A stretch of 64,000 bases of DNA from Comamonas thiooxydans. Lineage in GTDB: Bacteria > Pseudomonadota > Gammaproteobacteria > Burkholderiales > Burkholderiaceae_C. The DNA is taken from NCBI RefSeq assembly GCF_002157685.2, contig NZ_AP026738.1, positions 4,650,001 to 4,714,000 on the forward strand. The letters are read 5' to 3'. How positions within the stretch are numbered: the stretch's first letter is position 1; each line of letters begins with the position of its first letter. This document shows, one piece after another, positions 44,201 to 61,891 of the stretch. The position numbers were made by a program, and so were the translations under genes. The notes below the pieces were generated by a model that searched no databases, was not told the DNA's origin, and saw only the letters and a program-made list of their open reading frames with translations.

Positions 44201-45607
44201 TTACTCCTGTTTCACGCCGGCCTGGGCCGACACGGTGGATGGGGGGTGGCCAGCGGCGCGGCGGGCATTGGCATCGGCCAGGAACGCGGCGATGGCCTCG
44301 ACTTCTTCGGCCGGCAGGTCGATGCGCGGCATGTAGGTGACGGCACCGTGTTTGAGCGGGCCATTGATGAAGGCCGCGATCAAGTCCTTGTCGGTGGACC
44401 CGTAGAACTTGTCCGGGATGTTGCGCAGCGGCGCACCCGGCTCAAGCGCATGGCAGTTGGCGCAGGAGATCTTGGCCAGCACGCGGCCCACCTCGATCTG
44501 GTTATCCGGCGTGATGGTGCGCAACCGGTCCGGAATGAAGGGATGCAGCTTGAGCAGCCCTTTCTCGGCGATCACGTCCACCTCGCCCTGGATGCCCTTG
44601 CCGGGCACGTCGCGCGCGATCACCTGGTTGCCGTAGATGTACTGGCCTGCCACATAAGGCTTGCGCATGCTCTCTCGCATGCGTTCCTCCGGCCAGACGC
44701 CCACGATGCCGATGAACAGGAACAGGGGCACGGCCACCCAGGTCGTGACCCACAGCGGACGCCACCAGGCAAACACCAGGTAGGCCACGGTCACCGCGAC
44801 GACGGCGATCATGCCCCAGGCATAGCGCGGCAGCAGGTGCGAATCCAGCATCACCAGCGCGTTGTGCGGCAGGGTCTGGAGGTAGTAGAAGAACATGATT
44901 ACGGCGACCGCACCGCCTATCAGGCCCATGGGCGCGATGGTGCGCACCACGCTCTTGCGCAGCGCCTCGGGCTTGTCCTTCATGCCCGCGACCACCATCA
45001 GTCCGACGATGGCCGCCATCACCAGCATCGACCCCGTGCGCACGCCCAGGTGCGCGAAGAAGTTGATGTTGTAGAAGGCGTCGTTGGTCGAGCCCGTCTG
45101 GTACCAGGCGTCGTTGCCCGGCCACATCATGAAAGAGATGATCCCGACGATCAGCAGCATCGTCGCCCACGACGCGAGCGCGAAAGCCCAGGTGAGCTTG
45201 AGGTGCGTGCGCGCGTCGATCTTGCCGATCAGGTAGACCAGTGCATAGACACCGATCACCTCCACGGTGAAGTACACCCACTCGGCGGCCCACACCCAGA
45301 CGAAGCTGTGGATCAGCCCGGCCGTACCGCGCGGACTGGCGATGGTGATGGCGTACCAGATGCCCACGCCGGTGACGGAACCGACGATGTACGAGAACAC
45401 GAGCAGGAACTTGCCGTAGCGTTTGATGAAGTCCATCAGCTCCGGCTTGTTCTCGCGGTAGGCCTTGGTCTCCAGCAGCGCGAACAGGAAGGATGCGCCG
45501 ACCGATGTGTGAGAGGCCACGACGTGGATCACGCCGATGATGCCCATGACCCAGGCCGAACCGATCCAGGGCATGTAGAAGGTGGGATAGAACCCGATGA
45601 TGTCCAT
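44201..45607 (-). CDS. bd-superfamily-like oxidoreductase subunit with C-terminal cytochrome c domain
   Basis: A 468-residue protein with about eight membrane helices in residues 15-305. Histidines in GVIHVVASHTSVGASFLFAL (helix 1) and the GVGIWYAITIASPRGTA / WAAEWVYFTVEVIGVYALVY segments recall CydA. A soluble C-terminal cytochrome c domain follows with C382-AN-C385-H386 and a later candidate Met ligand in TYMPRIDLP. Such fusions occur in the branches of the bd superfamily that use cytochrome c rather than quinol. It probably exchanges electrons with the dihaem cytochrome of the same operon. It has no copper centre, unlike haem-copper oxidases. Confidence 0.75.
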   Translation of the reverse strand: MDIIGFYPTFYMPWIGSAWVMGIIGVIHVVASHTSVGASFLFALLETKAYRENKPELMDFIKRYGKFLLVFSYIVGSVTGVGIWYAITIASPRGTAGLIHSFVWVWAAEWVYFTVEVIGVYALVYLIGKIDARTHLKLTWAFALASWATMLLIVGIISFMMWPGNDAWYQTGSTNDAFYNINFFAHLGVRTGSMLVMAAIVGLMVVAGMKDKPEALRKSVVRTIAPMGLIGGAVAVIMFFYYLQTLPHNALVMLDSHLLPRYAWGMIAVVAVTVAYLVFAWWRPLWVTTWVAVPLFLFIGIVGVWPEERMRESMRKPYVAGQYIYGNQVIARDVPGKGIQGEVDVIAEKGLLKLHPFIPDRLRTITPDNQIEVGRVLAKISCANCHALEPGAPLRNIPDKFYGSTDKDLIAAFINGPLKHGAVTYMPRIDLPAEEVEAIAAFLADANARRAAGHPPSTVSAQAGVKQE

Positions 45608-46519: not shown

Positions 46520-46520
46520 A

Positions 46521-47075
46521 TCAGCCGTCGGTGCCCGTCGAGGATCCAAACAATCGGTCCTTGGCCGTGAGCAGCTTCTGCATCTTGGAGCCCATCTTCA
46601 TCAACTGCGCCATGGACTCGGGCGAGAGCCGCTGTAAGTCATCGAACCAGTTGTTGGCCAGATCCACCAGATCGTGCATCTCGCGCATGCGCTGCTGAGC
46701 GAAGGCGTCTTCGGGCGAGGTGGTGTCGGCCAACAGCGACTCGCGCAGCACCGAGAGCGTAGGCGCTACCTCACGCCGACGGCGCTCGGCGGCCACCACG
46801 CGGAAGATTTCCCACACATCACCCAACGAGGAGAAGTATTCGCGCCGGTCGCCAGGAATACGACTCTGCCGAACCAGCCCCCAGGACTGCAGTTCCTTGA
46901 GTCCGATGCTCACGTTGGAGCGGGAAATGCCCAACTGCTCGCCGATGTCGTCCGCATGCAGTTGCCGCTCCGTCACGAACAACAAGGCGTAGATCTGCCC
47001 CACCGTGCGGTTGATCCCCCAGCGGCTGCCCATCTCGCCAAAGTGGCTGACGAAGCTGTGGACGAGGGGGCTCAT
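46521..47075 (-). CDS. GbsR/MarR family transcriptional regulator
   Basis: A 184-residue winged-helix regulator. It has N-terminal FVSHFGEMGSRWGINRTVGQ, the recognition region ADDIGEQLGISRSNVSIGLKE, wing GDRREYFSS and a long C-terminal helical dimerisation region ending GSKMQKLLTAKDRLFG. This matches GbsR-type MarR proteins. It is the first gene of the leftward oxidoreductase operon and is divergent from the second DUF2946 gene. A perfect 13-base palindrome lies in the short divergent region. The signal it senses is unknown; copper or a related ligand would fit the neighbours. Confidence 0.88.
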   Translation of the reverse strand: MSPLVHSFVSHFGEMGSRWGINRTVGQIYALLFVTERQLHADDIGEQLGISRSNVSIGLKELQSWGLVRQSRIPGDRREYFSSLGDVWEIFRVVAAERRRREVAPTLSVLRESLLADTTSPEDAFAQQRMREMHDLVDLANNWFDDLQRLSPESMAQLMKMGSKMQKLLTAKDRLFGSSTGTDG

Positions 47076-47120
47076 GGGTAAGGTGCAGTTTTCGAGTTTT
47101 CAGAGAATTCGGAAAGTATG

Positions 47121-47133
47121 ACATGAATCATGT
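47121..47133. promoter_or_regulatory. Perfect palindrome in divergent GbsR/DUF2946 promoter region
   Basis: ACATGA-A-TCATGT, an exact 6+1+6 inverted repeat centred 52 bases upstream of the regulator start and 21 bases upstream of the preferred DUF2946 start. It is a good candidate operator for the GbsR/MarR protein to control both transcripts. Confidence 0.55.
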
Positions 47134-47147
47134 TGAAACAAGCCATA

Positions 47148-47516
47148 ATGCGAAACATGCACGCCTTGCGCACATCCTCAACGCTCATCCGCCTGGTTTT
47201 GGCGTGGTTTGCGTTGACGCTGGGCGTCGCCATGGCATCGCCCCTTGTCGCGCCCAAGACGATGGAGATGATCTGCTCGGACGGCGGCACGATGAGACTC
47301 ATCGTGGTCGACAAGAACGGTGAAGTCGTCGAAGCCGGCCAGCACACGCTCGATTGTGCGATGTGTCTGCCGGCATCTTTGCCTGCACCTGCCACCACCC
47401 GGCAGCTCACCCAGCCGCAGCCGCTGGCGCATGCCCTGACTCCGATTGAGGAGGCGCGCATCGCCGCCCTCGTCGGAGCGCCCCTGCCGCCTCGCGGCCC
47501 TCCCTCGCGCGCCTGA
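47148..47516 (+). CDS. DUF2946 protein (copy 2), possible copper-sensing upstream frame
   Basis: A 122-residue protein from ATG 47148. An ATG at 47130 falls inside the palindrome and ATG 47157 is also possible. It has a membrane helix LIRLVLAWFALTLGVAMASP, then TMEMICSDGGTMRLIVVDKN and the C-x-x-C site TLDCAMCLPAS, then a Pro-rich tail. In Bordetella a DUF2946 upstream frame with a CxxC controls translation of the following TonB receptor in response to copper (recalled from the literature). The same order is found here: DUF2946, a 248-base leader, then a TonB receptor. Confidence 0.8.
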   Translation: MRNMHALRTSSTLIRLVLAWFALTLGVAMASPLVAPKTMEMICSDGGTMRLIVVDKNGEVVEAGQHTLDCAMCLPASLPAPATTRQLTQPQPLAHALTPIEEARIAALVGAPLPPRGPPSRA

Positions 47517-47698
47517 CATCCGGCTGCTGAAGCGATTCGGCCAGAAGCGTACGTGAGTATGCCTAATGGCCGCTGATCGGCGCAACGGCTCCGCGCACAC
47601 GTCCTGAAGGGCTCCTGCCCGCTGCGGCCCATGGCATGCCCATCGGCCACGACTGCGCTGGCATCGACGCGACCTTGCCTCGGCCGAGATGGTTCATC

Positions 47699-47716
47699 CG
47701 AGTCCACGCGGACTCG
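47699..47716 (+). promoter_or_regulatory. Leader hairpin upstream of TonB receptor
   Basis: CGAGTCC-ACGC-GGACTCG, a perfect 7-bp stem with 4-base loop, 48 bases before the receptor ATG. A palindrome CTCGGCCGAG lies just upstream at 47679-47688 and a CTCTCTCT tract just downstream. There is no T run, so it is more likely a leader structure than a terminator. Confidence 0.45.
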
Positions 47717-47764
47717 CTTCTCTCTCTACGCCCAGATCCATCAGAACCGCTTTCGAGGATCGTC

Positions 47765-49933
47765 ATGCAAGCCCATCCGCCAGTGTCTCTCACCATCTTG
47801 GCCGCCGCCAGCCTCATCGCCATGGCGACCAGCGCCGTTGCGCAAGAGTCGACGGTCACATCCACACTGCCCGCCGTCACGGTCACCGGGGCGCCGGACG
47901 ACTACCGGCCGCCAGCCACCAGCACCGCCACGCGGACAGACACGCCTTCGCTGCAGACCTCGCAAAGCGTTCAAGTCGTGCCCCGCGCGGTCATCGAAGA
48001 CCAGAACGCGCTCACGCTGACCGATGCCGTGCGCAACGTCTCGGGGGTGCAGTACGACTTCGGGTTCAACGGGTCCATGCAGCCGCTGCTGATCCTGCGC
48101 GGGTTCCCCAGCACGTCGATGACAGCCATGGGTTCCATGTCGGGCAGTTCCAGCTACTACCTGGACGGCTCCAAAGTCATGGGCGTGCCGATCAACATGG
48201 CCAATGTACAGTCGGTCGAAGTCGTCAAGGGGCCGGCCAGCGTGCTGTACGGCCGCTCGGAACCGGGCGGCCTTGTCAACGTGGTCACCAAGCCAATCTC
48301 CAGCGTGTCCGAGCTGAGCTTCGAGCAGACCATCGGCCAGCGCGGCCTCTCGCGCACCGCCATCGAAGCCTCGGGCAGCCTCAATGCCGACCAGACGTTG
48401 CGCGGCCGCGTGGCCGCGTCGCACTACACCGCGGATTCCATCCGCGATTTCGTCGAGGACCGGCTGAGCAGCTTCACGGGCAGCCTGGCCTGGGTGCCCG
48501 ATGCGCGCACGAACGTCACGGCCACGCTGGACTACTCCGACAACCGCTACCGCACCGACTACGGCATCCCGGCCGTTGGCAACCGGCCTGCCGATCTCCC
48601 GTGGTCGCGCCAGTACAACGATTCGCCCTATCTCTCCAGCGCCAAGACCACGAGCCTCAAGCTCGATGCCTCCCACCAACTCAACGACGCCTGGCAGATC
48701 AAGGGCCGCCTGCTGAGCCTGCGCAGCGACACCTCCGAGATGGACATCGCGCCTTACCGCGTGGACATGGGCATGGCCATGCTGCCCAGCCAGACCTGCC
48801 CCGGGACTGGCGACCCGATGTGCCGCTACTACTTCGGCGTGCGCCCTGATGGCCGCTACAAGGTCGATCAGGTCAACGTGGACCTCACGGGCAAGTTCCA
48901 GACCGGTGGCATCGGGCACACCGTGTTGGTGGGCTTTGACACCTACCGCACCAAGAAAACCGGAACGACCTATACGCAGCAGGTGGACGCTGTCAGCGTC
49001 TACAACCCGTCCCTGGGCAACACGCCCGGCTTGGATCCGATGATGTCCATGCCACAGGACTACGACGACCACAGCCGCTGGACCAGCTTCTACGTGCAGG
49101 ATCAGCTCGCCCTGGGCAACGGCGTCTTCCTCACCGGCGCGCTGCGGCATGACCGCACGAACGCGGTGTTCGGCATGCCGGGCACGGAGCCGAACAAGCA
49201 ATCCTTCACCACGCCCCGCCTGGGCGCCGTGTGGCAGTTCGCACCCAACCAGTCCATCTACGCCCAATACCAGGACTCGGTGGCCGCGAACAACGGCCGC
49301 GATGCGGTCACCGGCGCCGCACTGGATTCCGAGCGCGCCCGCCAGATCGAGATCGGCCACAAGATCGAACTGTTTGACGGCAAGCTCAGCTCCACCGTGG
49401 CCCTGTTCGAGCTGACCAAGCGAAACCGAGGCGCCACCGTGCCCGATCCGCTGTCCCCCACCTTGACCAACGTGGTCACCATTGGCAAAGCGGTCGCGCG
49501 CGGCCTGGAATGGGACGTGTCGGGCCAGCTCACGAAGAAGCTGTCGCTGATTGGCTCCTACGCCTACACCGACGCCAAGGTCACCGAAGACCCGACCTAC
49601 CAGGGTATGAAGCTGGCCAACGTGGCACGGCACACTGCCAGCCTCTGGGCACGCTACGCCGTTGACAGCCAGTGGACGGTCGGCGGCGGCGTGTTCGCAC
49701 AGAGCCAACGCCAGGGCGACTCGGGCAACACCTTCCAGTTGCCGGGCTACGCGCGCGTGGATGCGATGGTCGCCTACCGATTCGCACTCGGTGCCAGCAA
49801 GGCGTCTCTGCAGTTCAACCTGGACAACGTCTTCAACCGCAAGTACTACACCGGCAGCCACCAGTTCCTGCAGGACTGGATCAAGCTGGGCAACCCGCGC
49901 ACGGCCAAGCTCACGCTGCGCGTGGACTACTGA
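47765..49933 (+). CDS. TonB-dependent siderophore-type receptor (first of the island)
   Basis: A 722-residue outer-membrane receptor from ATG 47765; the frame is open upstream but that part is the leader. The signal peptide ends near TSAVAQES. The plug has LPAVTVTGAPDDY, QSVQVVPRAVIEDQ, LTDAVRNVSGVQYD and VVKGPASVLYGRSEPGGLVN. The barrel ends LTLRVDY with the terminal aromatic residue. It is of the siderophore-receptor subfamily (GxxSEPGGLVN). A Met/Ser-rich plug loop SMTAMGSMSGSSSYY and MDMGMAMLPSQTC suggest soft-metal contacts (speculative). It follows DUF2946 and precedes the two DJ-1-like genes. Confidence 0.92.
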   Translation: MQAHPPVSLTILAAASLIAMATSAVAQESTVTSTLPAVTVTGAPDDYRPPATSTATRTDTPSLQTSQSVQVVPRAVIEDQNALTLTDAVRNVSGVQYDFGFNGSMQPLLILRGFPSTSMTAMGSMSGSSSYYLDGSKVMGVPINMANVQSVEVVKGPASVLYGRSEPGGLVNVVTKPISSVSELSFEQTIGQRGLSRTAIEASGSLNADQTLRGRVAASHYTADSIRDFVEDRLSSFTGSLAWVPDARTNVTATLDYSDNRYRTDYGIPAVGNRPADLPWSRQYNDSPYLSSAKTTSLKLDASHQLNDAWQIKGRLLSLRSDTSEMDIAPYRVDMGMAMLPSQTCPGTGDPMCRYYFGVRPDGRYKVDQVNVDLTGKFQTGGIGHTVLVGFDTYRTKKTGTTYTQQVDAVSVYNPSLGNTPGLDPMMSMPQDYDDHSRWTSFYVQDQLALGNGVFLTGALRHDRTNAVFGMPGTEPNKQSFTTPRLGAVWQFAPNQSIYAQYQDSVAANNGRDAVTGAALDSERARQIEIGHKIELFDGKLSSTVALFELTKRNRGATVPDPLSPTLTNVVTIGKAVARGLEWDVSGQLTKKLSLIGSYAYTDAKVTEDPTYQGMKLANVARHTASLWARYAVDSQWTVGGGVFAQSQRQGDSGNTFQLPGYARVDAMVAYRFALGASKASLQFNLDNVFNRKYYTGSHQFLQDWIKLGNPRTAKLTLRVDY

Positions 49934-49949
49934 GTGCCAGGACGTGGCC

Positions 49950-50804
49950 ATGATGATCACTGAACGGCGCAGCTTCCTGCGCGCAGCCACCGCCGCGCTG
50001 GCCGCCTCGCCGTGGCTGACCCACGCGGGTCAAGGCCAATCGGCCCAGGTGTCCGCGCAGACGCCCGCGCCGCACGATATGAGCGCCATGCCCGCGTCCT
50101 GGACCGGCAAGGAACAGATCGGCATGCTGCTCTATCCGGGCATGACCGCCCTGGACTTCGTGGGGCCGCAGCACATGTTCGCGGCACTGATGGGGGCGAA
50201 GGTGCACCACGTCGCCAAGACCCTGGACCCGGTGGTGAGCGACACCCAACTCGCTCTCTCGCCGACGGTGACGCTGGAGCACTGCCCGCGCGACCTGGAC
50301 ATCCTCTTCGTCCCCGGCGGTGGCGCGGGCACCATCGACGCGATGCGCGACGCGCAGATTCTGGCCTTTGTCGCAGACAGAGGCCGGCGCGCGAAGCTCG
50401 TGACCAGCGTCTGCACCGGCTCGCTCGTGCTGGGCGCGGCCGGCCTGCTGCAGGGGTACAAGGCGACCACGCACTGGGCGACGCACGCACTGCTGAAGGA
50501 AGCGGGTGCCATTTCCGTGCAAGCGCGCGTGGTGCGCGACCGCAACCGCATCACCGGTGCCGGGGTCAGCGCGGGCCTGGACCTGGGCCTGGCCATCGTG
50601 GGCATGCTGCGCGACCCAGCCTACGCGCAGACCGTGCAGTTGCTGGCCGAGTACGCCCCCGAGCCGCCCTTCGACGCTGGGACGCCGCGCACGGCGCCAC
50701 CGGCCGTCACCACCATGGTGGCGGACATGTTCAAGGATTTCGAGCTGCAGGCCCACGCCGCTCTGGCCCGGACCAAGGTCTCCCGGCCTGCGTCGAGCCG
50801 CTGA
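49950..50804 (+). CDS. Exported DJ-1/PfpI family protein, isonitrile hydratase-like (Tat substrate)
   Basis: A 284-residue protein with a twin-arginine signal (ERRSFLRAATAALAASPWL). The mature domain matches the isonitrile hydratase branch of DJ-1/PfpI: LYPGMTALDFVGPQHMFAAL (D69), ILFVPGGGAGTID and the nucleophile elbow SVCTGSLVLGAAGLL (C155-T156), equivalent to D17, C101 and T102 of Pseudomonas InhA. InhA hydrates isonitriles to N-formamides and is cytosolic; export of this one is unusual. It lies 16 bases after the TonB receptor stop. The function is inferred from the catalytic residues. Confidence 0.85.
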   Translation: MMITERRSFLRAATAALAASPWLTHAGQGQSAQVSAQTPAPHDMSAMPASWTGKEQIGMLLYPGMTALDFVGPQHMFAALMGAKVHHVAKTLDPVVSDTQLALSPTVTLEHCPRDLDILFVPGGGAGTIDAMRDAQILAFVADRGRRAKLVTSVCTGSLVLGAAGLLQGYKATTHWATHALLKEAGAISVQARVVRDRNRITGAGVSAGLDLGLAIVGMLRDPAYAQTVQLLAEYAPEPPFDAGTPRTAPPAVTTMVADMFKDFELQAHAALARTKVSRPASSR

Positions 50805-50811
50805 ATCGGTG

Positions 50812-51798
50812 ATGAATTTCGACCACGCGAACCAGTACCTGCCGAGGCTGTGGGCCCGGCGCGCGGCTCAGTCCACGCTTGGATGCGCTCCGAAGCGAGC
50901 ATGGTGCATCGCCATGGCTGCTTGTGCGTTGGCGTTGGGCGGCTGCGGCGACAAGGCGCCGCCGCGCGCCGAACCGCCTGCCATTGAACGGCTGTCGGCC
51001 GAGGATGCGGCGCTGAAGCAGCAACTGCCCCAGGACATCACGCCCGAGAACCACTCCATGGTCATGGATGCGATTCTGGGCAAGCCCAAGCATCCCATTC
51101 GGCAGATCGGCATCCTGGTCTACGACGGTGTCAACGACCTGGACTTCACGGGGCCGCGCTACATCCTGGGCCAGGCAGGCGCCACCACGCGGCTGATTGG
51201 CGTGAAACCGGGCCCGATCAGGACCGTGATGGGCGTGCAGGTCATTCCCGACACAGTGATCGACGACGTGAAGCAACTCGACATCCTGATCATCCCCGGC
51301 GGCTTCACCGGAACCATCGAGGCGTCCTACGACGACCGCGTCCTCGACTGGATCCGCGCCATCGACCGAGGCACCACCTACACCGGCGCCATCTGCACGG
51401 GGGTGTGGATCCTCGGCGCCACCGGGCTGCTGGAGGGCAGGCGCGCTTCCACCAACTGGTACCGCGAAGAAGAGTTCCTCAAGAAATACAAGGCCATCCC
51501 GGCCAACGAGCGCTACACGCGCGACGGCAAGTACTGGACCTCGGCGGGCGTCACCGCCGGCATGGACATGTCCCTGGCCTTGCTCAACGACAACTGGGGT
51601 CAGCGCTACACGCAAGGCGTGATGCTGGACATGGAGTACGACCCCGCGCCGCCGATCCAGGGCGGCACGCCCGAGAAGACCGGCTGGCTGGTCGAGTGGA
51701 TGGTGAAAGCCATGTACGACGCGGGTGTCGATCCGCTGATCAAGCGCCTCGAAAGCCAAAAGAAGGAACGCACGGAAGGTCCCGTGCCCCCTCGCTGA
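50812..51798 (+). CDS. DJ-1/PfpI family lipoprotein, isonitrile hydratase-like
   Basis: A 328-residue protein from ATG 50812. Lipobox ALGGC45 follows a hydrophobic stretch (IAMAACALALGGC), so it should be anchored in a membrane facing the periplasm. The DJ-1/PfpI domain has LVYDGVNDLDFTGPRYILGQ, ILIIPGGFTGTIE and the nucleophile elbow GAICTGVWILGATGLLEG (C195-T196). It is a diverged paralogue of the preceding Tat-exported gene, 7 bases away. Two exported isonitrile hydratase-like proteins in tandem next to TonB receptors suggest periplasmic breakdown of an imported ligand (inference). Confidence 0.85.
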   Translation: MNFDHANQYLPRLWARRAAQSTLGCAPKRAWCIAMAACALALGGCGDKAPPRAEPPAIERLSAEDAALKQQLPQDITPENHSMVMDAILGKPKHPIRQIGILVYDGVNDLDFTGPRYILGQAGATTRLIGVKPGPIRTVMGVQVIPDTVIDDVKQLDILIIPGGFTGTIEASYDDRVLDWIRAIDRGTTYTGAICTGVWILGATGLLEGRRASTNWYREEEFLKKYKAIPANERYTRDGKYWTSAGVTAGMDMSLALLNDNWGQRYTQGVMLDMEYDPAPPIQGGTPEKTGWLVEWMVKAMYDAGVDPLIKRLESQKKERTEGPVPPR

Positions 51799-51832
51799 CT
51801 CCACCCCATCAATACCCCCAAGAAGAAATCGC

Positions 51833-53884
51833 ATGCACCAACACGCTTCACCTCTCTCCATTGCCCTTGCCGCAGCGGGCCTGCTCACCTTGGCTCAGGT
51901 GCCCAGTGTCTGGGCGCAATCGGCGATCGCCACACTTCCGACCGTCGAAGTTCGGGCCTCCACCTCCCCGGATGCCCAGGCGGCAGAAGCGTTGAAGAAC
52001 GCACGAGAGGAACTCAACCGGCGCGCGGGCGCAACCGCCGTCATTGATGCGCAGAGCTACACCAGCGGCCGCGCCGCCACGGCCGTCGATGCGCTGGCCT
52101 ACGCCCCTGGCGTCGTCGCGCAAACGCGCCACGGACAAGACGCTCGGCTGTCGATCCGCGGCTCCGGCATCCAACGCAGCTTCCTGATGCGCGGCATCCA
52201 GCTCTACCAGGACGGCATTCCGCTGAACCAGACCGACGGCGCCGCCGACTTCCAGTCCATCGACCCCGCAGCCCTGCAGTACATCGAGGTCTGGCGTGGT
52301 GCCAATGCGCTGGAGTACGGGGCGAACGGCCTGGGAGGTGCCATCAACTTCGTTTCGCCCACCGGCCTGACGGCGCCCACGGCGGCGCTGCGGGTCCAGG
52401 CCGGGTCGTTCGGCCAGCGGCAGGCACAAGCCAACCTGGCGGCCCGTGGCGAGGTGGTCGATGGATTCCTCAGCGTCAGCCGGGGTGAACAGGACGGCTG
52501 GCGCGAACAGTCGGGCTATCGGGCCGACCGGCTTTCGGGCAATGTCGGTCTGCGCCTGTCGGACACGCTGGAGTTGCGCGGCTTCCTCTCGTACGTCGAT
52601 TCGACCATGCAGATGCCGGGCAGCCTCTCGCTGGCGGCGATGAACGCCAACCCGCGCCAGGCCGGCACCAATTACGCCGCGCTCAAAGCCACGAACGATT
52701 ACACGCAGAAGCGCGCAGCGCTGCGGCTGACCTGGCAGCCCAGTGCCGACGTTCGCTGGACGACCTCGCTGTACGGCGCAGACCGAGACCGCTATCACGC
52801 GATGACCGTCGGCATTCTGCAGCAGGACATGCAGGACACCGGCCTCGACTCGCGGGTCGCGGTCGAGTTCGGCACGCCCGTGCTGACGCGCCGTCTGGTC
52901 GCGGGCTTCTCCTTCGCTCGGCTGGACGGCGAAGAGCGGCGCAATGCCAACGTGGCGGGTAGTCCGGGGGCCGCCACAGGGCGCACGCAACTGGACGGCC
53001 GCCAGAACACGGTCTATGCCGAGTACACGCACGGCTTGAACGAACGCTGGGCCTTGCAGGCGGGCGTGCAAAGCGTGCAGGCACGCCGCCGCCTGGACAA
53101 CCTGATGAACCCGGCCGCGAGCTACGACGTCAAGTTCGAGAGCACGTCGCCCAAGCTGGGCGTGCTGTACACCGCGTCCCCGCAGTCGCAGTGGTTCGCC
53201 AATATCAGCGGCAGCTTTGAGGCCGCTCCGTTCGGCGAGGTGGCCTACAACGCGACGAACCCGCTGGCACGGGCGCAAGGCGCGACCACGGTCGAGTTTG
53301 GCTGGCGTGGCCGTACCGATCAATGGACCTGGGACGCGGCGCTGTACCGCTCCAACGTGCGGCGCGAGTTGCTGGCCATGACCAACGCCAGCGGCGTAGC
53401 GCTGGGCACGGTCAACGCCGATCGCACCATCCACCAGGGCCTGGAACTGTCGGCCACAGGCACGCTCGCGCCCGGCTGGACGCTGCGCGGCCAGTACCTC
53501 TACAACGACTTCCGCTTCGACGGCGACGCCGTGTATGGCAACAAGCGCCTGGCCGGCGTCCCGCCGCACCTGCTGCGCGCCGAGCTGCAGTGGCAGGCGG
53601 CACCCTGGATCAAGGTGGCACCCAGCCTCGACTGGCAGCCCTCGCGCACCTGGATCGACCATGCCAACACCGTGGCGGCAGACGGCTTCGCGCTGCTTAA
53701 TCTCACGCTCAGCGGCACCTTGCGTGGCGGCTGGGGCTGGTTCGTCGAAGGACGCAATCTCACCGATCGCCGCTACGCGGCCACGACCGCCGTGCAGGCC
53801 AACGCCCGGGGTCTCGACGGCGCTTATTACTTCCCTGGGGATGGCCGGTCCGTCTATGCCGGACTGACCTGGCGCACACCCTGA
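51833..53884 (+). CDS. TonB-dependent receptor (second of the island)
   Basis: A 683-residue outer-membrane receptor. The signal peptide ends near PSVWAQS; the TonB-box-like region is LPTVEVRAS. The plug has AVDALAYAPGVVAQTRHGQD, RLSIRGSGIQRSFLMRGIQL and YIEVWRGANALEYGANGLGG. The barrel ends YAGLTWRTP without the usual terminal Phe, so the last strand may be atypical. The plug sequence is closer to FecA/PupB-like or cobalamin/metal receptors than to the siderophore group. It starts 34 bases after the DJ-1 lipoprotein and is followed closely by a gene remnant. Confidence 0.9.
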   Translation: MHQHASPLSIALAAAGLLTLAQVPSVWAQSAIATLPTVEVRASTSPDAQAAEALKNAREELNRRAGATAVIDAQSYTSGRAATAVDALAYAPGVVAQTRHGQDARLSIRGSGIQRSFLMRGIQLYQDGIPLNQTDGAADFQSIDPAALQYIEVWRGANALEYGANGLGGAINFVSPTGLTAPTAALRVQAGSFGQRQAQANLAARGEVVDGFLSVSRGEQDGWREQSGYRADRLSGNVGLRLSDTLELRGFLSYVDSTMQMPGSLSLAAMNANPRQAGTNYAALKATNDYTQKRAALRLTWQPSADVRWTTSLYGADRDRYHAMTVGILQQDMQDTGLDSRVAVEFGTPVLTRRLVAGFSFARLDGEERRNANVAGSPGAATGRTQLDGRQNTVYAEYTHGLNERWALQAGVQSVQARRRLDNLMNPAASYDVKFESTSPKLGVLYTASPQSQWFANISGSFEAAPFGEVAYNATNPLARAQGATTVEFGWRGRTDQWTWDAALYRSNVRRELLAMTNASGVALGTVNADRTIHQGLELSATGTLAPGWTLRGQYLYNDFRFDGDAVYGNKRLAGVPPHLLRAELQWQAAPWIKVAPSLDWQPSRTWIDHANTVAADGFALLNLTLSGTLRGGWGWFVEGRNLTDRRYAATTAVQANARGLDGAYYFPGDGRSVYAGLTWRTP

Positions 53885-53901
53885 TCCACAGGAGCTTCGG
53901 C

Positions 53902-54107
53902 ATGGACCACACCCTCACCCGGCGCGCGCTGCTGACCGCCACGGCTTTGAGCACCATCACGCTGGCCTCGCGCGGGCTGACCATTGGGGAGACCACTTCT
54001 CCATCTTCCTGACGTTCGAGCGTGCGGGCGAACGCGAGGCGGTTGTGTGGATGCAAACGTCCAGAGAGCATCAGTCCGATACGCACGCGCATCACACGCA
54101 CCCATAA
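53902..54107 (+). pseudogene. Remnant joining a Tat signal fragment to a PCu(A)C-like C-terminus (frameshifted)
   Basis: ATG 53902 opens a twin-arginine-like signal (MDHTLTRRALLTATALSTIT) that stops at 54012. In another frame the same stretch continues as HWGDHFSIFLTFERAGEREA and ends with a His-rich tail THAHHTHP before a stop at 54107. The latter resembles the last strands of PCu(A)C-type copper chaperones (GD-F-L-LTFE-AG). The two pieces look like the ends of one gene that lost its middle and its frame. A complete PCu(A)C gene exists at 58044. Confidence 0.5.
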
Positions 54108-54122
54108 GCTTGAAAGGAAAAA

Positions 54123-56180
54123 ATGAAAACGATCCGAGCTGCGCTCACCCCCATCGCTGCCTTGCTGGCGCTGCATTCCCCGGCGTTGATGGCTTCTCCA
54201 GAGACGCCGACGCCCGTTGCTTCCGGCGCATCGCCCAAGGACGGCGTGTTGCCCGAAGTCGTTGTGACGGCGACGCGAACAGAGCGCCAGGTTGACGAGG
54301 TGCCCGCGAGCATCAGCGTGCTGAACGGCTCTGCCATCGCCACCAAGCAACGCCAGAACGTATACGAGGCCTTGCGCGATTTCGAGGGTCTGGACTTCGT
54401 CAGCCAACCTGGTGTCGCCCATCAGGTGTACCCGACGATTCGCGGTGTCGGCGGCTCTTCCGCCGGTGCGACGACGCAGGTCCTGGTCGATGGGCTGGCA
54501 CTGGATTCTCTGGTGTCCAGTGTGATGGGGCGTGGGGGGCTGAATTTCACCTCTTTGCTGGACGTGGAGCGCGTGGAGGTGCTGCGCGGTCCCGCATCGG
54601 CACTGTACGGCCCCAGCACCGTCGGCGGCGTCATCAACGTCATTCCCAAGCGCTGGAAAGGTGGGCCTGGGGGCGAGTTCTCCGCTGCCTACGGCTCGCA
54701 CGACACGCGCTCGATTGCGGCGGCCGTTGGCACGTCGGGAGAGGTGTTCGATGTCCGTCTGTCAATGCACGACAGCCGCAGCGATGGCTACGTTGCCACA
54801 CCGGTAGAAAATCCATACGGGCAATGGGATCTCGGTCCGCGTGGCTGGAAAGACCGGAAACTCGGGCTGCAGGTGAATCTGCGCCCGAACAAGGACCACG
54901 AGTTGAGTCTGGGCCTGCAGCAATACGACACGGCCTCGTTCAGCGACGGCGGGCGGCCCAATGCCTATCAGAACATGGACGGCCGCTCTGCCACCCTGGC
55001 GTACCGCCATGACTTGAGCGAACAGACGCAGGTCAAGGCCCAGTTGCGCTCGACACGCTTGAAGCAGCATTACGGATTCGACCGCTGGAGTTGGGACGGC
55101 CTGACGCAGCCGGGGGTGGTGTCTGTCGGCGACCTGGCGTTGGCCAGCCGGGGCGGGCGCATCAGCGACTCGACCTTCTTCCAGGCCAGCATCGACACCC
55201 GGCCCTGGACTGGCAACCAACTGGTGGCGGGGTACGCGCACGATACCGGCAAGCACGACCAATGGGGCCAGCCAGTCGGCGGCGATCGCTGGGTTACGGG
55301 CAGCAAGAGCCGGGTGGACAGTCTGTTCGTTCAGGATGAGCAGGTGCTGGGCCAGTTCGTGCTCACCGCCGGCATGCGCTACGACCGCATCGTCCTCTCG
55401 CCGGTGACCGACAACGGCATTCCAGTCAACGGGAAGGCCTCGGTAGACCACGTCGTCAACCCTCGATTGGGTGTGCGCTACCACGTTGACGATGTCACGT
55501 CCCTGTATGCCTCGTACGGCACGGCCTACCTACCGGCCACGAACAGCTTCAAGTTCGTGCAGCCTTCGACCACCCGCGTGGACAACCCGGACCTCAAGCC
55601 CGAGACTTCGGCTACCTTTGAAGTCGGCGTCAACCATCGGTGGCCTAGCGGCTCGCTGCGCTCGTCGCTGTTCCAGACCGACTACGAGGACAAGATCACG
55701 CTCGCGACCGACGCGGGCAGCGGCCTGCGCCAATGGCAGAACATCGCCGCGGTCAAGGTGGTGGGTATCGAGCTGGCTTACCAGGGCGACCTGGGGAACG
55801 GATGGAAACCCTACGCCAATTTCTCCTACACGCGGGCCCGTGACCATGCCACGCCCGGGGCGGTCGGCACCCAGTCGCTTCGCGTCGCCCCGCGCAAGTT
55901 CAATGCAGGCCTGACCTATGCCCCAAGCTCCGCGTGGGCGGCCACGCTCAATGCGCGCTACGTCAGTGGCCTGTACTTCAACAGCCTGAGCGAAGCCCAG
56001 TGGGCCAGTGGGTACACCCAGGTCGACGCCAAGCTGAGCGCGAAACTGCCGGCGCTGGGGCATCAGACGGAGGTGTTCTTCGCGGTCAACAACCTGACCG
56101 GCAAGACCTACGAGGCCTTCAACAAGGGGGAATGGACGGATGGGCGCACCTTCACCGTGGGCCTGACAGGCCGCTTCTGA
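54123..56180 (+). CDS. TonB-dependent receptor (third of the island)
   Basis: A 685-residue outer-membrane receptor, with AAAGGAAAAA before the ATG. The signal peptide ends near LMASPE. TonB box LPEVVVTATRTERQ. The plug has VPASISVLNGSAIATKQ, IRGVGGSSAGATTQVLVDGL and VEVLRGPASALYGPSTVGGVIN. The barrel ends FTVGLTGRF with terminal Phe. The plug is of the general ETATR subfamily used by heme, cobalamin and copper receptors. It is followed by PepSY, SCO and PCu(A)C genes in the same direction, pointing to copper as the likely cargo (inference). Confidence 0.93.
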   Translation: MKTIRAALTPIAALLALHSPALMASPETPTPVASGASPKDGVLPEVVVTATRTERQVDEVPASISVLNGSAIATKQRQNVYEALRDFEGLDFVSQPGVAHQVYPTIRGVGGSSAGATTQVLVDGLALDSLVSSVMGRGGLNFTSLLDVERVEVLRGPASALYGPSTVGGVINVIPKRWKGGPGGEFSAAYGSHDTRSIAAAVGTSGEVFDVRLSMHDSRSDGYVATPVENPYGQWDLGPRGWKDRKLGLQVNLRPNKDHELSLGLQQYDTASFSDGGRPNAYQNMDGRSATLAYRHDLSEQTQVKAQLRSTRLKQHYGFDRWSWDGLTQPGVVSVGDLALASRGGRISDSTFFQASIDTRPWTGNQLVAGYAHDTGKHDQWGQPVGGDRWVTGSKSRVDSLFVQDEQVLGQFVLTAGMRYDRIVLSPVTDNGIPVNGKASVDHVVNPRLGVRYHVDDVTSLYASYGTAYLPATNSFKFVQPSTTRVDNPDLKPETSATFEVGVNHRWPSGSLRSSLFQTDYEDKITLATDAGSGLRQWQNIAAVKVVGIELAYQGDLGNGWKPYANFSYTRARDHATPGAVGTQSLRVAPRKFNAGLTYAPSSAWAATLNARYVSGLYFNSLSEAQWASGYTQVDAKLSAKLPALGHQTEVFFAVNNLTGKTYEAFNKGEWTDGRTFTVGLTGRF

Positions 56181-56210
56181 CCCGTGGACCATGCACCATT
56201 GGAGCACGAC

Positions 56211-57305
56211 ATGCCTGCGCATTCCGTTTCGCCACTTTCTTCGCCGCTGCGATGCTGGCTGTCCCGCCTGCATCGCTGGACCGGGCTGCTGTCCCTGCCT
56301 TTCATATTGGTGTCGATTCTGCTCGGCATCGGGTTGACCCATCCTGACCTGCTCGATGCTTTCTCCGAGCGAATCTACCCGTCGCAGGCGATTCCCCACG
56401 TGGCGCTGCAAGAGCCTGTGCGCGTGGGCTCATGGGACCAGGCGCACGAACTGGCCCGGCAGGCCGTTGGCCGAAAAGGTCAGGTCATCACGCTGTCCGG
56501 CGACCACGTTGCGGTGGTGCAGGCTTTCGAGGCGCATACGCACGACCCTGCCGTGGCCAGCCGCAACAGGCACGTCAAGGTTCACGTCGATTTGCGCGAC
56601 ATGCGCGTCGTTCGCATCACCGACAGGGCCAGTTCTTTGGTGACGCAGGCGCACGCCGTTCATGCCTACCACTTCTTTGGCATTTCCTGGCTGACGGTGT
56701 CGATGGTGACCACGGTGGCCCTGGCCGTTCTGCTGCTCACTGGCGGTCTGATGGCGTGGCTGGACGGCCGGCGCGGCGTGGCATACCGTGCCGCCGTGAA
56801 ATGGCATGTGTGCGTGGGGCGTGTCAGCGGTCTGCTCCTGCTAGTCATCGTGCTGACCACTCTGCATTTGGAGTTCGGTGTCTTCGGGCATGGTGCGCCC
56901 GACGCGTCTCACCCGATTCCGGCTGTGCAGCCGGTCGGCACCGTGCATCCGAATTCCCTAGATCAGGCCAGGGATTTGGTGCACCAGGCCACCGGCACGC
57001 AGCCCAGGGCCGTGTTCATCCGCGATGGCGGCCGGGACACCAAATTCTCCGAGGCCGGGGACGGCATTGGCGGCCAGTCGGTGTGGATGGACATGACCAC
57101 CATGCGCATTCACCGCATGACGGATTGGCGCAACGACCGACAGGCACTGAACTTCATCCTTCACGACGGCCGTTGGCTGGGTGGCATGAATGCCTTGAAC
57201 GTCAACGACATGGTGGCATTGGCGCTGCTGTTCCTGGCGGTGGGAGGCGTTGGTCTCGGTTGGCAAAAGCGAAGGGGCCAGGATTCCGCGCCGGGCAACC
57301 CATGA
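56211..57305 (+). CDS. PepSY-associated TM helix protein (copper-cluster type)
   Basis: A 364-residue inner-membrane protein. ATG 56211 has GGAG 8 bases upstream and is preferred to the GTG at 56184. Helix 1 holds LHRWTGLLSLPFILVSILLG. A periplasmic PepSY stretch with many His (VQAFEAHTHDPAVASRNRH; AHAVHAYHFF) is followed by helix 2 (LAVLLLTGGLMAWLDGRRGV), helix 3 (RVSGLLLLVIVLTTLHLEFG), a second periplasmic part and a final helix VALALLFLAVGGVGLG. Such proteins are thought to reduce metal in the periplasm using quinol. It is 30 bases downstream of a TonB receptor. Confidence 0.87.
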   Translation: MPAHSVSPLSSPLRCWLSRLHRWTGLLSLPFILVSILLGIGLTHPDLLDAFSERIYPSQAIPHVALQEPVRVGSWDQAHELARQAVGRKGQVITLSGDHVAVVQAFEAHTHDPAVASRNRHVKVHVDLRDMRVVRITDRASSLVTQAHAVHAYHFFGISWLTVSMVTTVALAVLLLTGGLMAWLDGRRGVAYRAAVKWHVCVGRVSGLLLLVIVLTTLHLEFGVFGHGAPDASHPIPAVQPVGTVHPNSLDQARDLVHQATGTQPRAVFIRDGGRDTKFSEAGDGIGGQSVWMDMTTMRIHRMTDWRNDRQALNFILHDGRWLGGMNALNVNDMVALALLFLAVGGVGLGWQKRRGQDSAPGNP

Positions 57306-57417
57306 AACTCAGCCGACTTAGGAACCTCAGGAAAAACCACTGCGGCTTCTTGCGGGTCGATTGGTCAATCGACGTCAATCTGACTAAGAGTCAGCAGTGA
57401 GCAAAGAAAGAATTCGC

Positions 57418-58017
57418 ATGAGCCAAAAAATCAGAAGACGGATCCTACTGGTTGTCGCAGCACTTGGCGCCATTGCACTGGCCGCGTGTGAGCGCAAGTC
57501 ATCCGCGGCCTACCACGGCATTGACCTGACCGGCGCCACCTACGCCACCGACTTCCGGCTCACTGATCCGGATGGCAAGGAGCGCACGCTGGCGGGCTTC
57601 CGAGGCAAGGCCATCCTGATCTTCTTCGGTTTCACCCAGTGCCCCGATGTCTGCCCGACCGCCCTGGCGCGGGCGGCCGAGGTCAAGCGGCTTCTCGGCC
57701 CCGATGGCGAGCGCTTCCAGACGCTGTTCGTCACGGTCGATCCCGAGCGCGACACGCCCGAGGTGCTCAAGGCCTACACGGCCGCCTTCGACCCCAGCTT
57801 CATCGGGCTGTACGGCGACCTAGAACGCACCGCACAGATCGCCAAGGACTTCAAGGTCTACTACAAGAAAGTGCCGACGGGAGCGTCCTACACCATGGAC
57901 CACACGTCGCTCAGCTACGTCTACGACCCGCAGGGCAAGCTGCGCCTGGCCCTGCGTCATGAGCAACCCGCCCAGGACTACGCGGACGACATCCGCAGGC
58001 TCCTGAATCCCACCTGA
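57418..58017 (+). CDS. SCO1/SenC family copper chaperone lipoprotein
   Basis: A 199-residue thioredoxin-fold lipoprotein from ATG 57418. Lipobox IALAAC24. The copper site is C75-PDV-C79 (FTQCPDVCPTA) with H162 (TMDHTSLSYVYD), the complete SCO triad. SCO proteins deliver copper to the CuA site of cytochrome oxidase or act as thiol reductases. It lies 112 bases after the PepSY gene and 26 bases before a PCu(A)C gene, the standard SCO-PCuAC partnership. No haem-copper oxidase is encoded in the window. Confidence 0.94.
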   Translation: MSQKIRRRILLVVAALGAIALAACERKSSAAYHGIDLTGATYATDFRLTDPDGKERTLAGFRGKAILIFFGFTQCPDVCPTALARAAEVKRLLGPDGERFQTLFVTVDPERDTPEVLKAYTAAFDPSFIGLYGDLERTAQIAKDFKVYYKKVPTGASYTMDHTSLSYVYDPQGKLRLALRHEQPAQDYADDIRRLLNPT

Positions 58018-58043
58018 CCCTCAACCCTCTCAAGGAGAACACC

Positions 58044-58523
58044 ATGAAACTCGTCATCCGCACCGCCATCGTCGCTGCCTCGTTGCTCGCAGCCGCCGCC
58101 CAAGCCCAGGTCACCGTGAAAGACGCCTGGGTGCGTGCCACCGTACCGCAACAGAAAGCCACGGGCGCCTTCATGCAGTTGCAGGCCGCAAAGAACAGCA
58201 AGCTGGTCTCGGCCAGCTCGCCGCTCACGCCCGCGGTCGAGGTCCACGAGATGGCCATGCAGGACAACGTGATGAAGATGCGCCAAGTGCCGGCCGTCGA
58301 GCTGCCCGCGGGCAAGACCGTGGAACTCAAGCCCGGCGGCTACCACGTGATGCTGATGGACCTGAAGCAGCAGGTGAGGGAGGGCGACACGGTGCCGCTG
58401 ACGCTCGTCATCGAGGGCCCAGACGGCAAGCGCGAATCGGTCGAAGTGAAGGCCCCCGTGCGTGCGCTCAACGCCAGCGCCCAGCCGGCTGGCCACGATG
58501 CCCAGGGCGGCCACAAGCACTGA
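58044..58523 (+). CDS. PCu(A)C family periplasmic copper chaperone
   Basis: A 159-residue exported protein with AAGGAG before the ATG and a signal peptide ending AQAQ-VTV. The copper(I) motif H-X10-M-X21-H-X-M is exact: H68, M79, H101, M103. A His-rich C-terminal tail (AGHDAQGGHKH) may bind extra copper. PCu(A)C works with SCO to load copper oxidase centres. It is the last gene of the rightward copper set before the conjugation operon begins on the other strand. Confidence 0.94.
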   Translation: MKLVIRTAIVAASLLAAAAQAQVTVKDAWVRATVPQQKATGAFMQLQAAKNSKLVSASSPLTPAVEVHEMAMQDNVMKMRQVPAVELPAGKTVELKPGGYHVMLMDLKQQVREGDTVPLTLVIEGPDGKRESVEVKAPVRALNASAQPAGHDAQGGHKH

Positions 58524-58639: not shown

Positions 58640-58915
58640 TCACGGCGTACGGCAACCGGAGATGGTTACTCCACCAGCGTTTTGCAATGCGTGTTTACTA
58701 GCGCTGTTTCTCTGAAACCCACGGTCTCCTTGCATGAAGGCCTCTAGCATGTGCGGGATCAGCGTCGTGGCATCGACCGCTTCGCCGTACACCTGCGCGT
58801 GCAGCGCGGCGTAACGGTCGAGGTCGGCTTTCAGGCTGACCGGGCACGCAAAGGCCAGCTTGACGCTTTCGACCTTGGGCAGCGGCCCAAGCCGCAACTT
58901 CCTGGTGGTGTTCAT
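58640..58915 (-). CDS. DUF2274 protein at the end of the trb operon
   Basis: A 91-residue protein overlapping the trbI stop by 4 bases (ATGA). The body MNTTRKLRLGPLPKVESVKL and YAALHAQVYGEAVDATTLIP and HMLEAFMQGDRGFQR match DUF2274, which nearly always follows trbI in Tn4371/IncP-like elements. The last 20 or so residues (SASKHALQNAGGVTISGCR) look unlike the family and may have been added by a rearrangement at the element's end. The function is unknown. Confidence 0.88.
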   Translation of the reverse strand: MNTTRKLRLGPLPKVESVKLAFACPVSLKADLDRYAALHAQVYGEAVDATTLIPHMLEAFMQGDRGFQRNSASKHALQNAGGVTISGCRTP

Positions 58916-60177
58916 TTCGCAACTCCACGGTTGAAGAACATAGGCTGGTACGGCCGCAACACGAGGTCACGGTTGGCGATGATGCGCACCGGCAGACCCG
59001 GACGCTCGGTCAGCGTCGGCTGGATGTTCATGTTGCGCCGGGCCATCTCTTGGCCGACCTGATTGATGCTGTCCTGTGCGCTATCGCGCCCGGCGATCAC
59101 GATGCGGTTGCCGCCCTGCCGGTTCTGCGGCGCGGCCAGCTCGGCGCCCACGCCCAGCAGCGTGGTCAGCGCCGCGCCGGCAAAGACGCGATCCCAGTGC
59201 CAATCGACGCCATCCTCCAGGCCAGCGTAGCCGGCGGCATCGGTGCCTGCCAGGTTGTCGAGCTTCAGCGAAGACGTGTCCGGCAAGATGACGCGGCTCC
59301 ACACCACCTGCACGCGGCTTTGCCCATAGCTCACCTGGCTGTTGTACTTGCCCAGGATGCGCGATCCTTGCGGGATCAGCAGGAACTTGCCCGTGGCCGT
59401 GTCATAGACCGGCTCCGTCACCGTGGCGATCACGTCGCCGGGCAAATCCGACTTGATGCCCGTCACCAACGCCCCGGCGATCACCGTTCCGGCCATGACC
59501 TGATACGGCGACGATGGCATTTGCAGATTGCCGGAATTGCGGGTTTCCGTAGAGCCGCCTTTCAGGAAAGCCTCTTTCTGGTCTTGCCGGTTCTGCACGG
59601 CGGTGGGGTCGGATGGCTGGGCCGCCGTCGAGGCCGGGCCAGCGGCCAGCGGGTCGAAACCCGCCAAGGCACTGCCGGGCGCAGCCGCAGCGGCTTGCGC
59701 CGTGACCGGCGCGGTGGCCTTGCCTTGGTTGCCCGAGCGGAAGAACACCGACGAGTTCGCCGCCGCATCGGCCTCCTTGCGCCACGCATCCGCCGGATCA
59801 TGTCCCGGCGGCGCATACGTCGGCGTCACCGGCTGCTGCGACTTCACGATGGCCGGCCCCAGGTCGCCCGGCAGCGGCGGCCCCAGCTCCGGCGCCTTGC
59901 GCAGCTTCGAGTAGTCGGAAGGCAGGCCATCCAGCCCCTCGGACTTCGACACGCGATCGACGTTGTAAAGCTCGGTCTGCTCGCCCGTGCCGCGCCGGTG
60001 CGGCTGCAATGACCAGATCGTGGCCCCGAGCACGGCGACCGACAGGACGCCGACGAGGATGGCCAGCGTGCGCCGGTTCAGGCGCGTGACCGGGCGCGGC
60101 TGGGCGCGCAGCGCCACCGCCTCGGGCGCGACCTTGCCCGCCTGCGGAGCAAGATCAGGGGAATCGTCCTGGCTCAT
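58912..60177 (-). CDS. trbI: Conjugal transfer protein TrbI (VirB10-like)
   Basis: A 421-residue VirB10-family protein. It has a cytosolic N-terminus, a membrane helix at about 36-57 (TLAILVGVLSVAVLGATIWS), a Pro-rich periplasmic linker (LGPPLPGDLGPAIVKSQQP) and a C-terminal beta-barrel domain with PYQVMAGTVIAGALVTGIKS, LIPQGSRILGKYNSQVSYGQ and the antenna-loop region GVDWHWDRVFAGAALTTLLG. It spans both membranes in the type IV secretion core complex with TrbG and TrbH-like partners. It ends 3 bases before trbG's stop reading, in tight operon order. Confidence 0.95.
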   Translation of the reverse strand: MSQDDSPDLAPQAGKVAPEAVALRAQPRPVTRLNRRTLAILVGVLSVAVLGATIWSLQPHRRGTGEQTELYNVDRVSKSEGLDGLPSDYSKLRKAPELGPPLPGDLGPAIVKSQQPVTPTYAPPGHDPADAWRKEADAAANSSVFFRSGNQGKATAPVTAQAAAAAPGSALAGFDPLAAGPASTAAQPSDPTAVQNRQDQKEAFLKGGSTETRNSGNLQMPSSPYQVMAGTVIAGALVTGIKSDLPGDVIATVTEPVYDTATGKFLLIPQGSRILGKYNSQVSYGQSRVQVVWSRVILPDTSSLKLDNLAGTDAAGYAGLEDGVDWHWDRVFAGAALTTLLGVGAELAAPQNRQGGNRIVIAGRDSAQDSINQVGQEMARRNMNIQPTLTERPGLPVRIIANRDLVLRPYQPMFFNRGVAK

Positions 60178-60179
60178 GG

Positions 60180-61873: not shown

Positions 61874-61891
61874 GGGAGTTCTCCTTGAGGA

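Follow-up and report, generated by a model that had tools for sequence, protein, structure and literature searches.

The closest described counterpart of the locus considered here is the operon CruR (bp2923)-bfrG-bp2921 of Bordetella pertussis, which is repressed by copper (PMC9426467, partial text). According to that text, copper sensed by the CXXC motif of the leader protein CruR relieves a stall at its RAPP motif (CXXC-RAPP spacing of 45), and Rho then terminates transcription ahead of the receptor gene; the neighbours that its authors give for homologues of the operon include SCO, PCu(A)C and MbnPH. The term 'DJ-1' has a count of zero in the available main text of both DUF2946 surveys, this source included, with figures and tables outside the count. 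We have analysed a window of 64,000 nt of the Comamonas thiooxydans genome (contig NZ_AP026738.1, bases 4,650,001-4,714,000 of a one-contig genome of 5.91 Mb; positions below are those of the window), in which a CruR-like gene heads an operon that also encodes two DJ-1/PfpI proteins with export-type N-termini, here called DJ1a and DJ1b. Isonitrile hydratases, the nearest characterised relatives of DJ1a, have a well-studied mechanism and a natural role that is only presumed to be defence; in the siderophore esterases Fes and IroE, metal is released by destruction of the chelator. Our tentative reading, to which we give not quite an even chance, is that the CruR-type operon imports copper-metallophore complexes and that the exported hydratase-like enzymes free the copper.

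The operon consists of nine collinear genes on one strand (47130-58523), each above the curated Pfam cut-off in a scan of the window proteins. The features are as follows.

47130..47516, plus strand: DUF2946 (CruR-like) leader gene; PF11162 25.6 bits, a narrow pass over the cut-off of 23.7; CAMC, 42 residues, C-terminal RGPP; included in leader alignment A4
47517..47764, plus strand: leader gap of 248 bp with more C than G
47765..49933, plus strand: TonB-dependent receptor 1, of siderophore-receptor type; PF00593/PF07715; TIGR01783 360 bits (cut-off 223.5)
49950..50804, plus strand: DJ1a, twin-arginine-type DJ-1/PfpI protein of the isocyanide-hydratase clade; DJ-1_PfpI 93 bits
50812..51798, plus strand: DJ1b, DJ-1/PfpI putative lipoprotein of a separate clade; DJ-1_PfpI 100 bits
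51833..53884, plus strand: TonB-dependent receptor 2; Pfam match
54123..56180, plus strand: TonB-dependent receptor 3; Pfam match
56184..57305, plus strand: PepSY_TM inner-membrane protein, by analogy a candidate reductase for imported complexes; PF03929 52.9 bits
57397..58017, plus strand: SCO copper chaperone; PF02630 (SCO1-SenC) 155.6 bits; CPDVC and a His
58044..58523, plus strand: PCu(A)C periplasmic copper chaperone; PF04314 133.2 bits; HxM...M...HxM

The gene set, its order and its single direction agree with the initial annotation, which had also described the gaps as short. From receptor 1 onward the gaps are 16, 7, 34, 238, 3, 91 and 26 bp; the description thus fits six of them but neither the gap of 238 bp nor the leader gap, which measures 248 bp since the open reading frame of receptor 1, open from 47636, most likely starts at ATG 47765. 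Receptors 1, 2 and 3 score 201, 122 and 176 bits in Pfam. The two copper sites that had been called complete are so: CPDVC is followed by a later His in SCO (C-C-H), and the H-M-H-M pattern is present in PCu(A)C. The proposed export of the two DJ-1 proteins also agrees with their N-termini as read from the sequence, MMITERRSFLR in DJ1a being a twin-arginine pattern and LGGC in DJ1b a lipobox-like one.

The DUF2946 gene is the first of the operon and is followed by the long C-over-G gap seen at cruR. In windows of 78 nt, once the end of the leader gene is reached (start 47340), the C fraction stays above that of G, bar one tie, with C at 0.41-0.46 and G at 0.24-0.35 in windows starting at 47340-47460; this resembles the 'C>G bubble' that has been described for the cruR Rho site (PMC9426467). 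Both DUF2946 genes of the window, this one and a divergent one at 46127, carry the CruR signature of CXXC, then 42 or 46 residues and a C-terminal RGPP or RAPP, the leader at 47130 having Gly for Ala and that at 46127 the canonical RAPP. CXXC and R[AG]PP are invariant in 16 of the 16 leaders of alignment A4, which was made from 22 candidates (six, mostly weaker, were omitted, and one row was trimmed at its start). Thus the Comamonas and B. pertussis operons share a DUF2946 leader with CXXC and R-x-PP, a long C-rich gap, a TonB receptor and a PepSY_TM protein; unlike the former, the latter has three genes, one receptor rather than three and no DJ-1/PfpI gene. The initial annotation had noted that DUF2946 occurs with copper-regulated receptors. 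Because a CruR-type leader heads it, the window operon is most likely expressed under copper scarcity; by analogy we infer that copper represses it, presumably by Rho-dependent termination as in CruR. DUF2946 is not a copper-only family, since in Caulobacter crescentus one such gene belongs to a cluster that fell in a zur mutant microarray and another heads a zinc efflux operon (PMC4176598, partial text).

The gene arrangement recurs in other genomes and is therefore judged to be more than chance. When 399 genomes of the family were searched with a DJ1a profile, matches at E<=1e-75 were obtained in 14 of them, that of the window included. In all 13 other loci a copper-type gene lies within 8 kb of DJ1a, and in 11 a TonB receptor; the labels found were DUF2946 (12 loci), PCu(A)C (9), MbnH (5), MbnP (5) and SCO (4). 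Two control sets behave differently. Among 20 other DJ-1-superfamily genes (from 10 of 15 genomes of the family searched, taken from the upper part of 45 non-own matches, with four skipped, one at a contig edge and three near chosen genes) none has a copper-type gene nearby and two have a receptor (Fisher p=1.7e-9 for copper). Among 41 non-exported hydratase-like genes of the same 399 genomes, a copper-type gene is present at four (p=2e-9) and a receptor at one (p=9e-9). The latter set lacks the N-terminal part of the DJ1a model and is what remains of 58 matches at E<=1e-38 once 14 DJ1a, the DJ1b proteins from two genomes and a gene that locus L098 already contains are subtracted. 'Non-exported' was judged by the start of the match in the DJ1a model (32 or later in 40 of 41 and 17 in one, vs 1-13 in DJ1a) and by reading N-termini, the core being located in 27 of 41; an RR pair stands near the N-terminus in all 14 DJ1a proteins read (13 and that of L009).

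Two limits bear on these counts. A flank is shorter than 7 kb on one side in 14 of the 41 non-exported genes and in one of the 13 DJ1a genes; among loci whose flanks each reach 7 kb or more, the copper-type gene is found in 12/12 DJ1a vs 3/27 non-exported (p=1e-7). The DUF2946 profile used for the neighbourhood counts was built partly from the DJ1a loci themselves; with DUF2946 ignored, a copper label is still present in 9/13 vs 4/41 (p=7e-5). Pfam confirmed the labels for PCu(A)C (13/13), MauG (5/5), MbnP (5/5), SCO (4/4) and DUF2946 (15/18), a check that left out one of 19 DUF2946, one of five SCO (a fragment) and all three PepSY candidates. DUF2946 is the sole copper label in L099, L102, L107 and L110, each Pfam-confirmed, L110 barely (23.8, cut-off 23.7). 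The four copper labels in the non-exported set are real Pfam matches as well: two MauG, one SCO, and one DUF2946 with SCO and a receptor. An export-type N-terminus and a copper neighbourhood go together, as the contrast between 13/13 and 4/41 demonstrates. The survey of co-occurrence that the initial annotation had called for has thus come out in favour of its copper reading.

For DJ1b, a pattern scan of a genome collection, described as covering 84,980 species with a single genome apiece, gave 58 loci, mostly from Bacteroidota, with some from Burkholderiales, Methylococcaceae and others. On the same strand and within 5 kb there is a TonB receptor at 34 of them, MauG/MbnH at 14, PepSY at 11, MbnP at 10, an oxidase-like gene at four and PCu(A)C at two; neighbour families were assigned from representatives, many loci are cut by contig ends, and the counts stand without a Bacteroidota control set. 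At least 4 kb of upstream sequence is available at 40 loci, 26 of which have the receptor and 33 at least one other listed neighbour. A minimal unit is seen at L077: DUF2946, receptor, DJ1b, a small protein with a signal-like start, and PCu(A)C. Like methanobactin systems, relatives of the island have the copper-linked pair MbnP/MbnH, beside both DJ1a and DJ1b; in the window island neither PF20243 nor PF03150 was matched among the 14 proteins scanned (42973-58915). Together with the CruR features, these neighbourhoods support the assignment of the operon genes to a recurrent copper-uptake neighbourhood and of the leader to the CruR type, and the copper interpretation, extended to two phyla, is well supported by context.

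Small proteins accompany many of the DJ1b genes. A protein with CxGxC, mostly with a C-terminal F-[HR]-P-P, occurs at 30 of the 58 loci. Small proteins with a signal-like start were seen at 33 loci, mostly of Bacteroidota (for instance L053:9345-9803 and L033:8371-8739), with CxGxC in 37/37, PP near the C-terminus in 35/37 and a spacing of 64-71; four members scanned gave no Pfam match over cut-off. They are candidate counterparts of the CruR/CutF leaders. We do not claim a wholly new copper leader of Bacteroidota, since CutF-like genes with their neighbours are already shown there (PMC9973294, partial text). In some Bacteroidota, DJ1b is followed by a conserved protein that carries a CDCC motif and matches no Pfam family above its cut-off (L015:5576-6594, L016:1001-2308, L014:1869-3125).

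Of the two DJ-1 proteins, DJ1a makes the stronger case for an isonitrile-hydrating enzyme. It is 47% identical, over the shared DJ-1/PfpI fold, to the isocyanide hydratase (ICH) of Pseudomonas fluorescens, its nearest characterised relative, and its D71, C157 and T158 (translation of 49944-50804) correspond to D17, C101 and T102 of ICH. In the tree, a 97/93 branch splits 20 rows, including P. fluorescens ICH, 3ewn and 15 DJ1a, from 76 others; the 20 also hold one non-exported hydratase-like protein and two DJ-1 rows that are partial and sit on a very long branch. The equivalents of Cys101, Asp17 and Thr102 are each present in 15/15 DJ1a rows, as is that of Tyr181; its partner at the dimer interface, Asp168, is kept in 8/15, the window copy among them (P. 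fluorescens numbering; we matched this pair to D180-Y204 of RsICH). Thus DJ1a resembles Pseudomonas ICH/InhA in fold, clade, D17/C101/T102 and Y181, and differs in its export-type N-terminus and in having Val for Ile152 (15/15 rows). Its closest solved relative is 3EWN, a 'ThiJ/PfpI family protein' of Pseudomonas syringae with 56-57% identity, which shares a DM...P..W lead-in before the domain and has its aligned residues numbered 34-273, as though a signal peptide had been removed; the entry has no assigned function, and its structure looks like that of a DJ1a relative lacking the signal peptide. Isonitrile hydration by DJ1a is plausible on these sequence grounds.

The case for DJ1b is weaker. 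The candidate catalytic residues D113, C197 and T198 (translation of 50806-51798) are well conserved, with Cys and Asp in 56/56 rows, Thr in 53 and Ser in three, and the Tyr181 equivalent in 56/56; a lipobox-like pattern is found in 41/56. All 56 DJ1b rows lie on the opposite side of the 97/93 branch from ICH, and we do not class DJ1b as an ICH. Fusions point to a link of DJ-1 relatives with metal: P0119 is a DJ1b with a C-terminal YHS domain, and at L019 (8976-10091) a second DJ-1 protein stands behind a heavy-metal-binding domain (25.2 bits vs a cut-off of 23.6). Similar N-terminal segments were observed in the DJ-1 proteins of L061:10798-11946 (below the Pfam cut-off) and L022:10782-11981 (a candidate outside the Pfam scan).

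DJ1b is patchily distributed, since only 2/399 genomes of the family match, that of the window included, and none of four other genomes of the same genus in that sample does at E<=1e-70. In the class sample, matches at 1e-40 in 3/368 other genomes proved to be distant relatives that lack an export segment and have no copper label in their neighbourhood (L078-L080, the last on a 5-kb contig). Plasmid copies of the island were also sought: the DNA search gave one record covering 1% of the query, and the DJ1b protein search gave 304 records, all below 60% identity. Thus no close plasmid copy was found.

With respect to the imported ligand, the best solved relatives of receptor 1 are the metallophore receptors FhuA, CntO and FoxA. 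The OprC model TIGR01778 is not among the 18 families matched by receptor 2, nor among the matches listed for receptor 1 (25 of 29) and receptor 3 (25 of 31). Isonitrile synthase (PF05141) gave no match in the genome, a result that says little because the model also found 0/14 positive controls. These receptors might import a copper-isonitrile complex.

The proposed sequence of events is as follows. Copper starvation would let transcription read past the leader, and receptors 1-3 would import metal-loaded chelators, probably of other microbes' making. In the periplasm DJ1a, and perhaps the lipoprotein DJ1b, would covalently inactivate the chelator, most simply by hydration of an isonitrile to an N-formamide that loses its hold on Cu(I). 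The freed copper would pass to PCu(A)C and SCO for assembly of heme-copper oxidase, PepSY possibly serving as a reductase; an oxidase free of copper may be provided under the same condition by the divergent leader and oxidase-like genes. Such a system would be like Fes and IroE in that metal is freed by destroying an imported chelator, and unlike them in metal, chemistry and protein fold. A mycobacterial isonitrile metallophore, kupyaphore, is reportedly modified by an isonitrile hydratase; that system is said to be actinobacterial, with a self-made metallophore and no TonB receptor, and would be a precedent for metal release driven by a hydratase. The broader proposal is enzymatic copper piracy, in which Gram-negative bacteria of at least two phyla take up, by way of TonB receptors, Cu(I)-isonitrile chalkophores that fungi or actinobacteria have made, and free the copper by periplasmic hydration with exported isonitrile hydratases. 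The genes would be controlled by a copper-sensing leader and would pass between species, here beside conjugation genes. This broader proposal is possible, and on balance we find it doubtful. The isonitrile step itself is attractive and unproven.

Several observations weigh against our reading. Nine of the 58 DJ1b loci are without any listed neighbour, and five of these nine have 4 kb or more of upstream sequence; MbnP/MbnH as neighbours are just as suggestive of other chelators. At L139:8408-9112 a non-exported hydratase-like gene stands beside DUF2946, SCO and a receptor that closely resembles receptor 1 (1077 bits), and at L098:5753-6457 another stands beside the DJ1a cluster; the non-exported genes have no clearer exceptions than these two. 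The catalytic Cys is found in 15/15 and the Asp in 12/15 other DJ-1 rows of the tree; they are not diagnostic of isonitrile hydration, and active-site residues alone prove nothing because they occur in other DJ-1 proteins too. As for DJ1b, its position in the tree counts against it, the D168 equivalent is lacking in 56/56 rows, and its AlphaFold2 model is poor (mean pLDDT 54), for which reason no fold search was made with it. Published accounts, moreover, give ICH a defensive and not a nutritional role (PMC10792529 section 2.7; PMC10971408 introduction, partial text).

The strongest alternative, unlikely as we judge it, keeps the copper-starvation import operon and has the DJ-1 proteins act by cysteine chemistry on another chelator, such as a methanobactin-like oxazolone/thioamide or another metallophore. 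The position of DJ1b outside the ICH clade would fit it, as would the kinship of receptor 1 with hydroxamate and opine-metallophore receptors and the MbnP and MbnH genes (5/13 DJ1a loci; MauG at 14/58 and MbnP at 10/58 DJ1b loci). DJ1a is the difficulty here, since it groups with a characterised ICH by sequence, fold and tree; to our knowledge, no DJ-1 protein cleaves methanobactin-like or other metallophore compounds.

The exported DJ-1 proteins could also be copper carriers or thiol/redox helpers, their Cys together with N-terminal His/Met binding Cu(I) and handing it to PCu(A)C/SCO with no hydrolysis. His83 and Met87 ahead of the domain are invariant in the 23 DJ1b proteins of alignment A1, and 51/53 DJ1b and 7/8 DJ1a rows have a His among the 35 residues that precede the core (of 56 and 14 rows, the core being located by a simple pattern); the YHS and heavy-metal-binding-domain fusions lean the same way. 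Still, conservation at the hydratase site extends beyond the Cys to Asp, Thr/Ser and Tyr, for which a carrier would have no obvious need; we regard this role as somewhat less probable again.

Defence is a third alternative: isonitrile antibiotics would strip copper, the leader would sense the starvation, and the exported hydratases would destroy the antibiotic, while receptors and chaperones restore copper in parallel. Besides the view of ICH as a defence enzyme cited above, fungal isocyanide clusters often carry ICH, which is read as self-protection (PMC10153163, partial text). The DJ-1 genes directly follow a TonB receptor gene (16-bp gap), though, and that receptor would serve import; moreover, the non-exported hydratase-like genes are seldom near copper genes (4/41). 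We consider defence improbable.

That the system serves zinc instead of copper, or both, is very improbable. Against it, the chaperones SCO and PCu(A)C handle copper, the metal to which CruR responds, and the available text of PMC4176598 lists no Zur site for the C. crescentus cluster of DUF2946, GntR, sodA, TonB receptor and ThiJ/PfpI. On the other side stand the fall of that cluster in a zur mutant microarray, for which the same text gives no copper reading, the C. crescentus DUF2946 gene that heads a zinc efflux operon, the possible binding of other metals by some CutF-like proteins (PMC9973294), and a zinc-starvation-like cluster close by in the same conjugation region.

The operon is flanked by the following genes.

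46521..47075, minus strand: MarR/GbsR-like regulator, divergent from the operon; PF12802 42.7 bits
46127..46549, minus strand: second DUF2946 (CruR-like) leader, preceding oxidase-like genes; PF11162 60.7 bits; CPYC, 46 residues, RAPP
44201..45607, minus strand: cytochrome bd-I-like protein; PF01654 32.5 bits; CANCH, a c-type haem motif, in the C-terminal part; PF13442 24.8 bits, below the cut-off of 27; homologue next to DJ1b in Bacteroidota
42973..44196, minus strand: membrane partner of the oxidase-like protein; no family match
58640..63244, minus strand: DUF2274 gene with trbI-like (below the model cut-off), trbG, trbF and trbL conjugation genes, abutting the operon

The four divergent genes were absent from the initial annotation. 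At 42973-46549 the bd-like oxidase, which has a c-type haem motif, and its membrane partner are preceded by a CruR-like leader. Homologues of the oxidase-like pair were observed beside DJ1b in L021, L026, L060 and L061, that of L021 matching only cytochrome c families. Cytochrome bd sustains respiration in copper-starved Mycobacterium tuberculosis (PMC12140626, partial text), and the divergent bd-like protein may be an oxidase that needs no copper and is turned on when copper runs short.

Further downstream of the trb genes lie traG and parA; the operon, patchily distributed, adjoins these genes, which mark a conjugative element. Beyond the window and trb/traG (L081:8383-18266, genome 4,722,383-4,732,266), HisI, dihydroorotase, ThrS, CysS and ZigA are found above model cut-offs (ZigA with 712 bits vs 600) and a gamma-carbonic-anhydrase-like gene below its cut-off, a make-up known from zinc-starvation replacement sets. 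Copper- and zinc-starvation cargo may travel together on this conjugation region. At the other end of the window (4046-12470), another TonB receptor, PepSY_TM, DUF3325, HlyD-type and MacB-type genes form a cluster beside tRNA-Gln (12394-12470), which looks like another island of chelator uptake and export.

In the literature ICH as a probable defence enzyme and isonitriles as chalkophores appear in the same paragraphs (PMC10792529 section 2.7) and likewise side by side in the available part of PMC10971408; in the open-licence literature we found no copper-uptake operon described as including an isonitrile hydratase or a DJ-1 protein that is exported. With export-type members near copper-uptake genes and the others mostly not, the natural role of the hydratases becomes a direct question. 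If the reading proposed here is true, exported isonitrile hydratases would gain a nutritional role, and bacteria would pirate copper by destroying the chelators of other microbes, as a copper counterpart to what siderophore esterases do; this would matter for competition between fungi and bacteria and for antimicrobials whose mode of action is copper starvation.

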